Assembly (NCBI GenBank): GCA_026707945.1
Contig: JAPOVV010000115.1
Location: 310,001-374,000 of the forward strand
Direction: 5' to 3'
Length of the DNA: 64,000 nucleotides
Origin: Gammaproteobacteria bacterium
Lineage (GTDB): Bacteria > Pseudomonadota > Gammaproteobacteria > Pseudomonadales > Azotimanducaceae
The notes below the pieces were generated by a model. It made no database searches. It was not told where the DNA came from and worked only from the letters and a program-made list of their open reading frames with translations. The position numbers and the translations under genes were made by a program. This document shows, in pieces, positions 59,728 through 64,000 of this stretch (positions are counted from its first letter, which is position 1; each line of letters begins with the position of its first letter).

Positions 59728-60105
59728 TTATGCAGAAGGTTTTCGGGAACGCATGCGACGGATAGCGTTGTCGAGTTCAGGTAGGTTTTGTTCTACAACT
59801 TCCCGCACAATGTTGAGGTTTATCGCCAAGTATCCGTGAGTGAGTCGGTTTCGCAACGCTTTGATCTCTGACCATGGAACGTCGGGTTCGGTAGCCTTGA
59901 TCGATTCGCTGAGGCGAGAAGTTGATTCTGCAAGCGCTTGTAGGTTACGTATTACGGCGTCTTGGACCAATTCGGAGTTCATGAAGCACTCTCTCGAACC
60001 TCTCGAATGACTCGCGATACGCGCGATGCAGTCGGTCACATGTTCCAGGAGAACGATGTCGCCGTCCGGGCGGCTAACAGCGGTATGGCTTCTCGGACTA
60101 CCCAT
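59728..60105 (-). CDS. hepT: HepT-like RNase toxin (DUF86)
   Basis: 125-residue HEPN-fold toxin. The catalytic R-X4-H-X-Y motif is intact at Arg85, His90 and Tyr92 (LRNRLTHGYLA), and the core QDAVIRNLQALAESTSRLSE matches the family. HepT cuts RNA (tRNA in some cases) and is controlled by the MntA antitoxin, whose gene overlaps its 5' end by 70 bp. The start at ATG 60105 is a best guess; the frame stays open upstream to 60129. Confidence 0.88.
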   Translation of the reverse strand: MGSPRSHTAVSRPDGDIVLLEHVTDCIARIASHSRGSRECFMNSELVQDAVIRNLQALAESTSRLSESIKATEPDVPWSEIKALRNRLTHGYLAINLNIVREVVEQNLPELDNAIRRMRSRKPSA

Positions 60106-60392
60106 TCGCGCATGGACGGATAGAGACACGTTTCGGTGACAACGTCGACCGGTCTCGCAAGGAGTTGCTCGGCGTCAATGGACAGACCGCATAGTGCCAA
60201 GGCGGAAGTTCCGGGTGGCGCGTCGACAAGAAGGTCCACATCGCTGCCGTCGTGGTAATCGCCTCGAACCATCGATCCAAACACTCTGACATTGCGTAAT
60301 CCTCGGCGCTCGGCGAGCAAGAGCAACTCTTCTCGGTGCTTGACGAGCAACGGAGGTAATTCACCTGTTGTGAAATCAGAGGTTTGTTTCAT
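60036..60392 (-). CDS. mntA: MntA-type nucleotidyltransferase antitoxin
   Basis: 118-residue minimal nucleotidyltransferase. The G-S-X10-D-X-D motif is complete (Gly39, Ser40, Asp51, Asp53; FGSMVRGDY). MntA proteins neutralise HepT by adding AMP to its active-site Tyr. Gene order antitoxin then toxin, with overlap, is characteristic. ATG 60392 is clear. Confidence 0.9.
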   Translation of the reverse strand: MKQTSDFTTGELPPLLVKHREELLLLAERRGLRNVRVFGSMVRGDYHDGSDVDLLVDAPPGTSALALCGLSIDAEQLLARPVDVVTETCLYPSMREWVVREAIPLLAARTATSFSWNM

Positions 60393-60678: not shown

Positions 60679-61692
60679 CTAGAACCAGCGATCGTGAATG
60701 GCTTGATAGCGGCCATCGGATTGCAGCTTCAGCAGTGTCGCGTTGAGAGATTCGCGAAGAGGCGACGAAGCTTGCAACGCCATACCGATGTAGTGAGGGG
60801 AGAACATAGGACCGGTCTTAACGAGGTCTTTACTACGCTGGACTAAGTGCGCTATGGCGAGCGTGTCGTGCATAACGACGTCCACGGATCCTTCACGCAT
60901 CGCGTCTGCAGCCTCGACGAGATCCGTATGTTCCATTGTTTCGACTCCAAGCTCATTCAGATATAGTGCCGCCGCCGTTCCTGCCTTCGTTCCTACAACG
61001 TATGTTCGAAGGTCGCCCACTGACTGAACGGGCTTCGCTGCACGTTGTCCTATCGCGTCAGCGGCGAATTGTCCGAAGATTACTCCGAAAGCGGTCACAC
61101 CCGTCAGGATCAATAGAGCTGCGCTAATTCGTCCCAACCATCGTTGCGGCGCAATGTCACCGTAGCCTACCGTGGACATGGTGACCAAACTAAACCAGAT
61201 GGACTGAAAGACACCAGGTATATACCGATCACTGATGGCGGTTTGGCCATGTTCCGACCACCACATCAGGTGCGCAAAGAAAATCACGAACACCAGCAAT
61301 AGAAGCAGCATCTTCAGGCTTTCGTCGCTGAAATTTGGAATAAGACTAGCTTCGATCAAACTAGCTGCCGAAAAACCGTTAGTAGTTACGGCATGGGTGA
61401 AATCCATATCGAGCTCGCGGTCGGCCGACACGCTTATACAGCCGATCGCGACGTCCGCGCTTGCAGTTTTTATCGCTTCGAGTTTTTCGTCGAACCCCAC
61501 TAGCTCGAGCTTGTAGTCGAGCTCAAGTTCCTCCGCGATCGCTTCCCAAAGCTCGATGGAGAAGCCACTCAATTCTTCGTCGGCGAAGACGCATGGGGGT
61601 AGCTCGCTTGCAACGACGCGGACCGGTTCGGCTGCCAAAACGCACGAGGTAGCAAAAACGACCGCGAGGGGCAGCAAGGCTCGTGCGTTCAA
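60679..61692 (-). CDS. GluR0-like ligand-gated potassium channel
   Basis: 337 residues with the layout of a prokaryotic ionotropic glutamate receptor. Signal peptide 1-21; amino-acid-binding lobe 1 about 23-118, with a conserved ligand-binding Arg (Arg92 in SADRELDMDF); membrane helix about 126-145; pore loop with the K+ selectivity filter TVGYGD (174-179); second helix about 187-212; lobe 2 about 220-337, with Asp276 of the VMHDTLAI block in the usual place. Binding of an amino acid would open a K+ pore in the inner membrane. It sits upstream of a convergent-free gap and downstream of a PspA-like operon. Homology is clear by architecture; ligand unknown. Confidence 0.9.
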   Translation of the reverse strand: MNARALLPLAVVFATSCVLAAEPVRVVASELPPCVFADEELSGFSIELWEAIAEELELDYKLELVGFDEKLEAIKTASADVAIGCISVSADRELDMDFTHAVTTNGFSAASLIEASLIPNFSDESLKMLLLLLVFVIFFAHLMWWSEHGQTAISDRYIPGVFQSIWFSLVTMSTVGYGDIAPQRWLGRISAALLILTGVTAFGVIFGQFAADAIGQRAAKPVQSVGDLRTYVVGTKAGTAAALYLNELGVETMEHTDLVEAADAMREGSVDVVMHDTLAIAHLVQRSKDLVKTGPMFSPHYIGMALQASSPLRESLNATLLKLQSDGRYQAIHDRWF

Positions 61693-61713: not shown

Positions 61714-61872
61714 TCATTGCTTGTTCAAACGCCGCCGCACGAACATGAACACGACGAAAACCGCGATAGTGAGCGCGACGATCGTCAATAAACTGGTGAG
61801 CCAACCAAGGACGAAATAAAGCAATGCCCCGACGACGAGAACGCCGAGTATGTACCAAAGCGACTTTTTCAT
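61714..61872 (-). CDS. Tiny membrane protein between the channel and PspA-like genes
   Basis: 52 residues: MKKSLWYILG at the start, two adjoining hydrophobic segments (about 5-24 and 28-46), and a basic end (VRRRLNKQ). The ATG at 61872 and TGA at 61714 frame it between the channel gene (22 bp away) and the coiled-coil gene (48 bp away), on the same strand. It is too short for a family call; small membrane proteins are common in phage-shock-type operons. Confidence 0.6.
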   Translation of the reverse strand: MKKSLWYILGVLVVGALLYFVLGWLTSLLTIVALTIAVFVVFMFVRRRLNKQ

Positions 61873-61920: not shown

Positions 61921-62688
61921 TTAGAGTTTGTCCGGTAAGTCAGGCGCGGGTGGCTTCGCTGCTTCGTCGACGCCGGCAAGCACTGCCGCAACGTCAGCGT
62001 CTTCGAACGCTGGGTCTTTCTTCTCGCGCGCGTCGCCAAGCAGTTCGGCTCGACGGTTTGCCGCGTTTGCGGCTTGACGCGATTTCTCAGCTTGTTCCTG
62101 CATGACTTTCGATGCCACACCTAGATTCGTACTGCCGCTGCGTATGCCGGCCAGCCGCTCCTGGTGTTGAGCACGCTTGTTGGCGCGACTTTCAGCGCGT
62201 TTCGCGCGCTCCATCTCCGCTTGGGCTTTCTTGAGATTTGACTCAAGCATCTTGATCGTTTCCGCCATTTCTTCCTGAATGGCTTCGACTTCGTCGAGAT
62301 CCTGCTTAGCCATTTCAGCTTCTTCGATCTCCGTACGTGCGCTCGCCAACAGCTCGGCGGCTTCCGCTTTGAGCTTGTCCGCAGCGAGTGAGAGCTTGTC
62401 GGATTTCTCGGGACTCGCTGCCGCAGCATCTTCAAGTGCACGAATTTGATCCATCTTCTTGTTGTAAGCGGTGCGTGCGGCTTCCGCCTCCGCGGCTTCG
62501 CGGTTGTAAGTCACTCGGTAGTCTTCGACTTCAAGCGCGAATTTCTCGAACTTCTCCCGCTCTGCGGCAATCTCTGCTTTTGAAGTGCCTTCAGGGTCAA
62601 GTTTGACCATACCGGTTAAGATGGCGTCTCCAGCGTCTGCCAGTTTGCCTTCGCCGTAGTTTTTCCAAAATGCGAGTTTGTCTAGCAC
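61921..62688 (-). CDS. PspA/YjfJ-like coiled-coil protein
   Basis: 255-residue protein that is helical throughout, with long Ala/Glu-rich coiled coils (about 35-190) and an acidic, Pro-rich tail. It resembles the PspA/IM30 membrane-stress family in composition and in its neighbour, a YjfK-like gene, as in E. coli yjfJ-yjfK. The GTG at 62688 is chosen because GGAGG lies 8 nt upstream; the longer frame to 62715 would put the Shine-Dalgarno inside the gene. PspA membership needs a profile search. Confidence 0.65.
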   Translation of the reverse strand: MLDKLAFWKNYGEGKLADAGDAILTGMVKLDPEGTSKAEIAAEREKFEKFALEVEDYRVTYNREAAEAEAARTAYNKKMDQIRALEDAAAASPEKSDKLSLAADKLKAEAAELLASARTEIEEAEMAKQDLDEVEAIQEEMAETIKMLESNLKKAQAEMERAKRAESRANKRAQHQERLAGIRSGSTNLGVASKVMQEQAEKSRQAANAANRRAELLGDAREKKDPAFEDADVAAVLAGVDEAAKPPAPDLPDKL

Positions 62689-62733
62689 GATTGCATCCTC
62701 CGTGTGTGTAAACAAAGTGAAGTTATCTTGGTT

Positions 62734-63495
62734 TTAAACTGCATCAGGCAGCTCCATGTCACTTGCTGCCAGCGGCAGGCCTACCCAGATTCGTACCCTA
62801 AATCCGTCGGCGTCACGCTCGACGGTTGGCAGTAGATACTCCTGTGTCCCGACCCCGCCTAAACCGTCAAATACCCTCGCGAACAACATAGTGCCGAGAT
62901 GTTCGACGTCGGTTTGACTCTCACCGTAGGGATCAAGCGTAATCGTTTCCTTCAAAGAGGCTGGCTTCAGCCAGATATCCTGGTCGGCTTCCCAGAGCCG
63001 TTCGTAGGTCAATTCATCGGGCGTGTGGAAGAGCGGCATTCCGAGAATGCCTTCATCTTTCGCGAGCCAAAAATCAACAGCAGAAGTCTCATCTTCATGC
63101 TCGGGAACGTCCGCCACAGCGACGTGATAGAGCGGCAGCTCGTACTGCTCATGGAATACGTAGCGTTCGTCAACGTGTTCGCCTTTGTCGTCCATCAAGA
63201 GCATGAGCATCGCGCTCTCGTCCGGGTCGTCACGGGAATCGAGATAGAGTCGAAAAGTCTTCATTCCGGCGAGCTCAACTTCGCTGAATGCCGCGAGTAA
63301 GGTTTCCGATCCTGGATAGGGCACGTGCGTCGCTTCGCCCGCCAGCAGGAACGGCGCTTCAGCAAACTGCACTCTGGAGCCGATACGCAAATTTAGTGGC
63401 AGCTCGCCGTCAACTCGGATTCTGTCCTTGCCATCGCCCGACCAGCGATCTTTAGCCGCTTGAACCTTCAGGCGCAAGTACTGTTTCATTGACAT
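62734..63495 (-). CDS. YjfK-like DUF2491 protein
   Basis: 253-residue soluble protein. LPLNLRIGSRVQFAEAPFLL at residues 33-52 and the later FRLYLDSRDDPDESAMLMLL resemble DUF2491 (E. coli YjfK), a family of unknown function encoded beside PspA-like YjfJ. It lacks a signal or membrane helix. It precedes the coiled-coil gene by 46 bp on the same strand and is likely in the same operon. Confidence 0.65.
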   Translation of the reverse strand: MSMKQYLRLKVQAAKDRWSGDGKDRIRVDGELPLNLRIGSRVQFAEAPFLLAGEATHVPYPGSETLLAAFSEVELAGMKTFRLYLDSRDDPDESAMLMLLMDDKGEHVDERYVFHEQYELPLYHVAVADVPEHEDETSAVDFWLAKDEGILGMPLFHTPDELTYERLWEADQDIWLKPASLKETITLDPYGESQTDVEHLGTMLFARVFDGLGGVGTQEYLLPTVERDADGFRVRIWVGLPLAASDMELPDAV

Positions 63496-63537: not shown

Positions 63538-64000
63538 CTAGTGTTCGCGAGTAAGGTCGTCAATCGCAGGTTGAGCATCAAGCACAGCACCAAGCAACGA
63601 TTCATATGCCTGTGCGTTCTCTTCGCGCCAGCCTAAGCTCGTGACCATATCGACCGGCACCGTCAGTGTCTCAACTTCGGAAAAGATGAATCCGTCCTGG
63701 ATATTCGCGTATTGGTCATCAGGAATATCGAGAAATACGTATACGTCTTCTCCCGATGGGTCTTTGTGGCCTTGAAAAAGCTTGCCATGACCGTACTCCA
63801 TATCGTTGAAGTCCCAGTCGTTTACTGGTACTAGCTTGACGTCGTCACCAAGCGTATTGGCGCGCTGTAGGAGTTGCGTGTTCAGTGACGCGACGAACAG
63901 CATGCAGTCGGACTCGCCATTTGCAACACGGTTAAGTGCAGATGTACCACCGACGTTTTCAGTGTGAACGTTCGCATAGGAGTCATCCATGTAAACGAAA
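63538..64000 (-). CDS. Unidentified acidic protein, cut by the window edge
   Basis: At least 153 residues. The ATG at 63990 is in frame, but the frame is open to the window edge, so the true start may lie outside. The protein is acidic, without membrane helices, and ends 42 bp before the YjfK-like gene on the same strand. I do not recognise it; E. coli has yjfI (DUF2170) in this place, but the sequence does not obviously match that family. Confidence 0.5.
   Translation of the reverse strand, partial: FVYMDDSYANVHTENVGGTSALNRVANGESDCMLFVASLNTQLLQRANTLGDDVKLVPVNDWDFNDMEYGHGKLFQGHKDPSGEDVYVFLDIPDDQYANIQDGFIFSEVETLTVPVDMVTSLGWREENAQAYESLLGAVLDAQPAIDDLTREH

Follow-up and report, generated by a model that had tools for sequence, protein, structure and literature searches.

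Our data show that a predicted GluR0-type ligand-gated K+ channel, encoded near the end of the window (the whole stretch of 64,000 nucleotides analysed here), stands at the end of an operon-like cluster which comprises a probably secreted NMT1_3 protein, a DUF2491 (YjfK family) protein, a helical protein, a 52-aa membrane protein and the channel itself. In the explanation we consider best, the GluR0-type channel takes the place of the RCK-sensor K+ channel of other DUF2491 loci. We put the probability at about two in three that the product is an amino-acid-gated K+ channel serving PspA-linked envelope-stress physiology as a member of this cluster. The conserved cluster, which is absent from the first-pass annotation, is more informative than the channel alone. 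The five genes are all on the same strand, are separated by intergenic gaps of 18–48 nt, and lie as follows:

63538..64000, minus: NMT1_3 (TAXI-like) protein, 549 aa, 3' part within the window; the gene extends beyond the window (L003:4039-5688 in full; Pfam NMT1_3, E = 9e-11)
62734..63495, minus: DUF2491 (YjfK family) protein (Pfam PF10679, E = 1.1e-12)
61921..62715, minus: helical protein and probable, divergent homologue of PspA/YjfJ (deep profile, weak fold matches; a start at 62688 is better conserved)
61714..61872, minus: predicted membrane microprotein, 52 aa, hydrophobic with a basic C-terminus, 21 nt before the channel start
60679..61692, minus: predicted GluR0-type ligand-gated K+ channel gene, 337 aa (translation; Pfam SBP_bac_3 and Ion_trans_2; PDB 2pyy/1ii5)

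The channel gene, for which the first-pass annotation named no strand, is translated from a TTG start at 61692 to a stop codon ending at 60679, and the plus-strand reading of 60679–61692 contains several stops. Its dN against the three closest relatives is 0.10–0.13, with dS of 1.5 and 1.7 for two of them and saturated for the third. Whole-gene dN/dS, taking the two halves of the binding domain (S1 and S2) together with the pore, is below 0.1 in both comparisons with estimable dS; the gene is under purifying selection and is not a chance ORF. The product is arranged in these parts:

61327..61626, minus: S1 half of the binding domain, residues 23–122, boundaries approximate (alignment to 2pyy; contains R92, C34 and C85)
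61054..61326, minus: pore, consisting of TM1, pore helix, filter and TM2, residues 123–213, boundaries approximate (Ion_trans_2 at 132–210)
61156..61173, minus: K+ selectivity filter TVGYGD, residues 174–179 (translation; the same in 7/7 clade members aligned)
60682..61053, minus: S2 half of the binding domain, residues 214–337 (sequence alignments; contains K236, H275 and D276, which align with GlnH K115, H156 and D157)

The split amino-acid-binding domain around a two-helix pore that the first-pass annotation had proposed is recovered by the profile search it had suggested, both models matching over their cut-offs: SBP_bac_3 gives a single match to residues 27–337, interrupted by the pore (E = 1.8e-20), and Ion_trans_2 covers residues 132–210 (E = 1.2e-14). 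Matches to Lig_chan-Glu_bd, Ion_trans and Lig_chan stay below the Pfam cut-offs. The filter at residues 174–179, Arg92 and Asp276 lie in the translation exactly where they had been placed, and all three are identical in 7/7 aligned clade members (the eighth, L011/L040, is truncated and was excluded from this alignment and from the pocket counts). An Arg in S1 and an Asp in S2 are present in 21/21 channel-like sequences aligned; the part of the 2010 survey available to us describes the ligand Arg and Asp as totally conserved (PMC2950845). With SBP_bac_3 halves flanking the pore, a K+ filter, the Arg/Asp pair and a best PDB match to a GluR0, the suggested GluR0-type architecture holds, and by its sequence-testable features the protein is a GluR0-type channel (Ger "Group 1"), its signal-peptide-like N-terminus and its topology having been judged by eye.

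Among PDB sequences, the channel matches the ligand-binding core of Nostoc GluR0 best (2pyy, E = 1.5e-25) and then glutamine-type binding proteins, with Synechocystis GluR0 (1iit and 1ii5) at 5e-8. When a profile of the clade is used instead, 2pyy ties with the GlnPQ chain 6h30, and the profile also aligns with animal iGluR stretches spanning LBD and pore. The proposed check by structure prediction gave a weak result. A Foldseek search places iGluR LBD-TMD chains at the top and 2pyy at rank 9 (E ∼1e-12), although the TM-score by query length is ∼0.35 and the AlphaFold model behind it is weak: built from 6 sequences only, it has a mean pLDDT of 58, with pore and hinge mostly below 50. A Foldseek search of BFVD with the same model returned two viral matches at E ≤ 0.001, both from giant viruses (E3T502 of Cafeteria roenbergensis virus and A0A7D3QWB5 of Fadolivirus), whose annotation is that of an amino-acid transporter or a solute-binding protein.

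Channels of this type are already known, and their presence in this class is ordinary. A 2010 survey lists prokaryotic iGluR members that have a K+ filter, with 12 "Group 1" sequences in the portion of that paper seen here (PMC2950845), and full-length homologues with TVGYGD occur in at least 8/273 other genomes of the class; the occurrence "in a gammaproteobacterium", which had been singled out beforehand, is true and is not unusual. The count comes from a class sample of 274 genomes including the window's own, in which 10 other matches spanning most of the query were chosen and TVGYGD was present in 8/10; it is given as "at least 8" because partly covered matches with a long open frame (e.g. 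G258 and G262) were left out. In a sample of 200 genomes of the family, again including the own genome, 12 genomes among the matches listed have a match over most of the query (one running off a contig end). Eight of them form one clade, in which the other seven channels are 49–84% identical to that of the window, and the remaining four are at 26–30% identity.

Pocket residues hint at a particular class of ligand. R92, K236, H275 and D276 align with the identical residues R75, K115, H156 and D157 of E. coli GlnH in 7/7 clade members, and GlnH F50 is matched in 6/7. Among other GluR0-like proteins, K at the position of 236 was found in 0/14 and H at that of 275 in 1/14, so that the K/H pair occurs in 0/14. 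The likeness is nevertheless partial, since GlnH D10 aligns with S29 of the channel and GlnH F13 is without a counterpart. The contacts through F13, F50, K115 and H156 are described as unique to GlnBP in the section of the literature consulted (PMC9022810). Given these GlnH-like residues, glutamine or a similar small polar amino acid is the first ligand candidate and our best guess.

The order NMT1_3–DUF2491–helical protein–channel is the same in 8/8 clade members of the family sample (L003 and L034–L040), which span two genera, L038 belonging to the other genus; the contig of L040 breaks off within the channel. The Pfam DUF2491 model matches 6/200 genomes of the family and the channel adjoins in all six, while DUF2491 of L038 and L039 falls below the Pfam model and was recognised by a profile of four YjfK-type sequences. 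We infer that the five genes are co-transcribed. A scan of the cluster for promoters and terminators was uninformative (1 promoter-like site versus 3.7 expected by chance, and 11 terminator-like sites versus 6.2), and no tRNA was found beside the cluster. Just downstream of the channel lies a HepT/MntA-like pair (HEPN plus nucleotidyltransferase, type VII toxin-antitoxin family; 59728–60392, minus strand), which is over the Pfam cut-offs and below the NCBIfam ones; both genes are seen in L035 and the MntA-like one alone in L036, while the surroundings of the channel in L034, L037 and L039 showed neither gene.

Two further members of the cluster deserve a short description. Hydrophobic ORFs of 46–54 aa occupy the microprotein site in 6/7 orthologue loci including the own one (L038 by hydrophobicity only), and no small hydrophobic ORF was found at this site in the seventh, L039; in L034 a second small hydrophobic ORF of 69 aa adjoins the microprotein. 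The 52-aa protein could be an accessory subunit of the channel. The 549-aa NMT1_3 protein has an N-terminus that resembles a signal peptide by eye and is probably secreted. Its N-terminal part is rich in Arg, Ser and Gly and is followed by a segment that looks like a coiled coil (by eye) and then by the binding domain; the similar NMT1_3 proteins of L132 and L133 have Ser-rich leaders.

It is more difficult to assign the helical protein. It has no Pfam hit, a PDB sequence search with it returned nothing at E ≤ 1, a YjfJ profile at E ≤ 1e-3 misses it, and PF04012, run against the whole genome at E ≤ 1, misses it as well while finding a normal PspA elsewhere. An identification as PspA from appearance alone was rejected, since the first shallow hhalign comparison (6 close sequences versus 4 PspA/YjfJ sequences) gave 0.9% and neither Pfam nor PF04012 matched. 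The assignment made here rests on a deeper profile of 12 sequences, including four remote relatives (L125, picked by eye, and L129, L132 and L133, found by profile), which against 27 YjfJ-type PspA frames gives an hhalign probability of 94.9% over 241 columns. With either profile reversed the value drops below 1%; among 20 heptad-block shuffles the highest value is 5.4%. The AF2 model (pLDDT 78) consists of a short N-terminal helix and a long helical hairpin; the top seven Foldseek matches are all Vipp1, at weak E values of 0.02–0.14, none of which passes 1e-3, and unrelated coiled coils come next. With moderate confidence, we take this protein to be probably a remote, divergent member of the PspA family.

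Searches of the class and the phylum yielded 31 other DUF2491 loci (in 3/273 and 28/397 other genomes respectively). A K+ channel matching a two-RCK-channel profile lies directly upstream of DUF2491 in 22/31 of them; Pfam finds Ion_trans_2 and TrkA_N in one such channel, that of L061. The other 9/31 showed no channel within 6.5 kb, so such loci do not always require one, and E. coli K-12 likewise has yjfIJKLMC without one. Among the 31 loci of the wider phylum we found no convincing GluR0-type channel near DUF2491, apart from a 30-bit match in L130 that lies about 4 kb away. Two of these genomes, from other classes of the phylum (L132 and L133), carry a cassette of NMT1_3, DUF2491 and helical protein with no channel detected beside it, of which we found no description in the accessible part of the DUF2491 paper that we located (PMC11237479). 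The same part describes clusters with RCK channels as a "third group", which combines a CesT/Tir-PspA dyad, a K+ channel that senses its ligand inside the cell, DUF2491, DUF350, DUF1190 and ATP-grasp. At E ≤ 1e-3, neither the window nor any of the 8 loci matched YjfI (CesT/Tir, DUF2170), DUF350, DUF1190 or the ATP-grasp YjfC, so the present cluster is not a canonical yjf cluster. Our searches of the openly licensed literature, judged from titles and the openings of abstracts, turned up no GluR0-type channel in a DUF2491/PspA-like cluster.

The conserved five-gene cluster and the replacement of the RCK channel suggest a job for the protein. A signal peptide would direct both halves of a clam-shell binding domain to the periplasm, and four subunits would assemble a K+-selective pore with the TVGYGD filter. 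The pore would then open as the domain closes around a small polar amino acid, perhaps glutamine or a close relative, and most likely an extracytoplasmic amino-acid signal would in this way act on K+ flux, membrane potential or cell volume within a PspA-linked envelope-stress response. Alternatively, the gene might be an ordinary free-standing GluR0 homologue that adjoins a DUF2491 cluster and is functionally unlinked to it. Profiles of DUF2491, PspA/YjfJ, the NMT1_3 protein and CC indeed found such neighbours in 0/4 of the other family loci and 0/10 of the class loci with full-length GluR0-like channels (some of the 14 stretches being short), and the cassette of L132 and L133 shows that the three upstream genes occur without a detected channel. 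Against this, the core order, strand and close spacing are kept in 8/8 clade members from two genera, with channels down to 49% identity, and K+ channels of another type are placed directly upstream of DUF2491 in those 22/31 other loci; we hold a neighbourhood of this unlinked kind to be unlikely.

The role of the binding domain itself can also be doubted, as it may no longer be a ligand sensor and the protein may be a constitutive or membrane-tension-sensitive K+ channel. The pore is the most conserved part of the protein in 5/5 orthologues compared, and with the three nearest relatives it is 93–96% identical as opposed to 77–83% for S1/S2; a response to membrane tension has been raised as a possibility for GluR0, in the part of the work available (PMC13099474). 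This loss seems improbable to us, however, since R92 and D276 are identical in 7/7 members, and the low whole-gene dN/dS, in which S1 and S2 are not separated from the pore, argues in the same direction. The binding domain might instead be controlled by redox state: C34 and C85, both in S1, are present in 7/7 clade members and 0/14 other GluR0-like proteins and are absent from GlnH, and a disulphide between them is possible. C85 aligns with GlnH G68, a residue that lines the ligand cleft. In the oxidising periplasm such a bond might lock or unlock the clam-shell, and the channel would then sense the redox state of the envelope. The cysteines may also be structural or reduced, and parts of S1 are modelled with low confidence; gating by redox state alone appears to us a rather slim prospect, much like the loss of ligand sensing.

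If the amino-acid-gated, cluster-linked channel is what the gene encodes, its position invites a more specific, speculative proposal. Glutamine or glutamate is abundant inside the cell and scarce in the periplasm, and an outward-facing channel beside a PspA-like repair protein would by virtue of this contrast open on a leak. The channel might thus serve as an alarm for the cell's own leakiness, opening when the membrane loses amino acid and shifting potential or volume as the PspA-like protein mends the damage, with C34/C85 as a possible redox switch. We consider this doubtful. Activation of Synechocystis GluR0 by effluxed glutamate, suggested in the part seen of a 2026 study (PMC13099474), would fit such a sensor of leaked amino acids as a hypothesis. 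If true, a DUF2491 cluster has exchanged an inward-looking RCK channel for an outward-looking one of glutamate-receptor type.

Several known systems can be set beside the window. Synechocystis GluR0 (Slr1257; 1ii5/1iit), the Nostoc GluR0 LBD (2pyy) and Ger Group 1 have in common with the window's channel, a bacterial relative of brain glutamate receptors, the order S1–TM1–pore–TM2–S2, the K+ filter, the Arg in S1 and the Asp in S2; the window's protein also has an N-terminus that by eye resembles their signal peptide, and all are without an N-terminal ATD and without M4, the window's protein ending at S2. According to the portion of the recent work at hand (PMC13099474), Synechocystis GluR0 mediates K+ uptake in E. 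coli LB2003, has a topology opposite to that of KcsA and takes part in the cell-volume response to high KCl; the remark made at first pass that the physiological role of such channels is poorly known is thereby partly outdated. What sets the window's clade apart from other GluR0 channels are the GlnH-type K/H pocket residues, the clade-specific cysteine pair and, in comparison with the 14 other GluR0-like loci and within the stretches examined, the DUF2491/PspA-like cluster. GlnH of E. coli (1ggg/1wdn), which is similar across both lobes and shares R75, K115, H156, D157 and F50, is by contrast a soluble ABC-transporter protein without a pore, and its D10 and F13 are unmatched in the channel.

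The cassette of L132 and L133 agrees with the window's cluster in three genes and in their order, and differs in having no detected K+ channel. With the yjfIJKLMC-type clusters the window shares a probable PspA/YjfJ relative (here remote and too divergent for Pfam), DUF2491 and a K+ channel with TVGYGD, whereas an NMT1_3 protein and a membrane microprotein stand here in place of the remaining genes. While the channel kind is known, a K+ channel of a DUF2491/PspA-like cluster with its sensor expected on the opposite side of the membrane is new among the publications searched. The linkage offers a concrete and testable envelope-stress hypothesis for one clade of bacterial channels of glutamate-receptor type. 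The contrast between the cytosolic RCK sensor of the yjfIJKLMC-type clusters and the SBP_bac_3 domain of the window, which is expected outside, suggests that the K+ pore is a recurrent component of DUF2491 clusters and that the sensing side is interchangeable.
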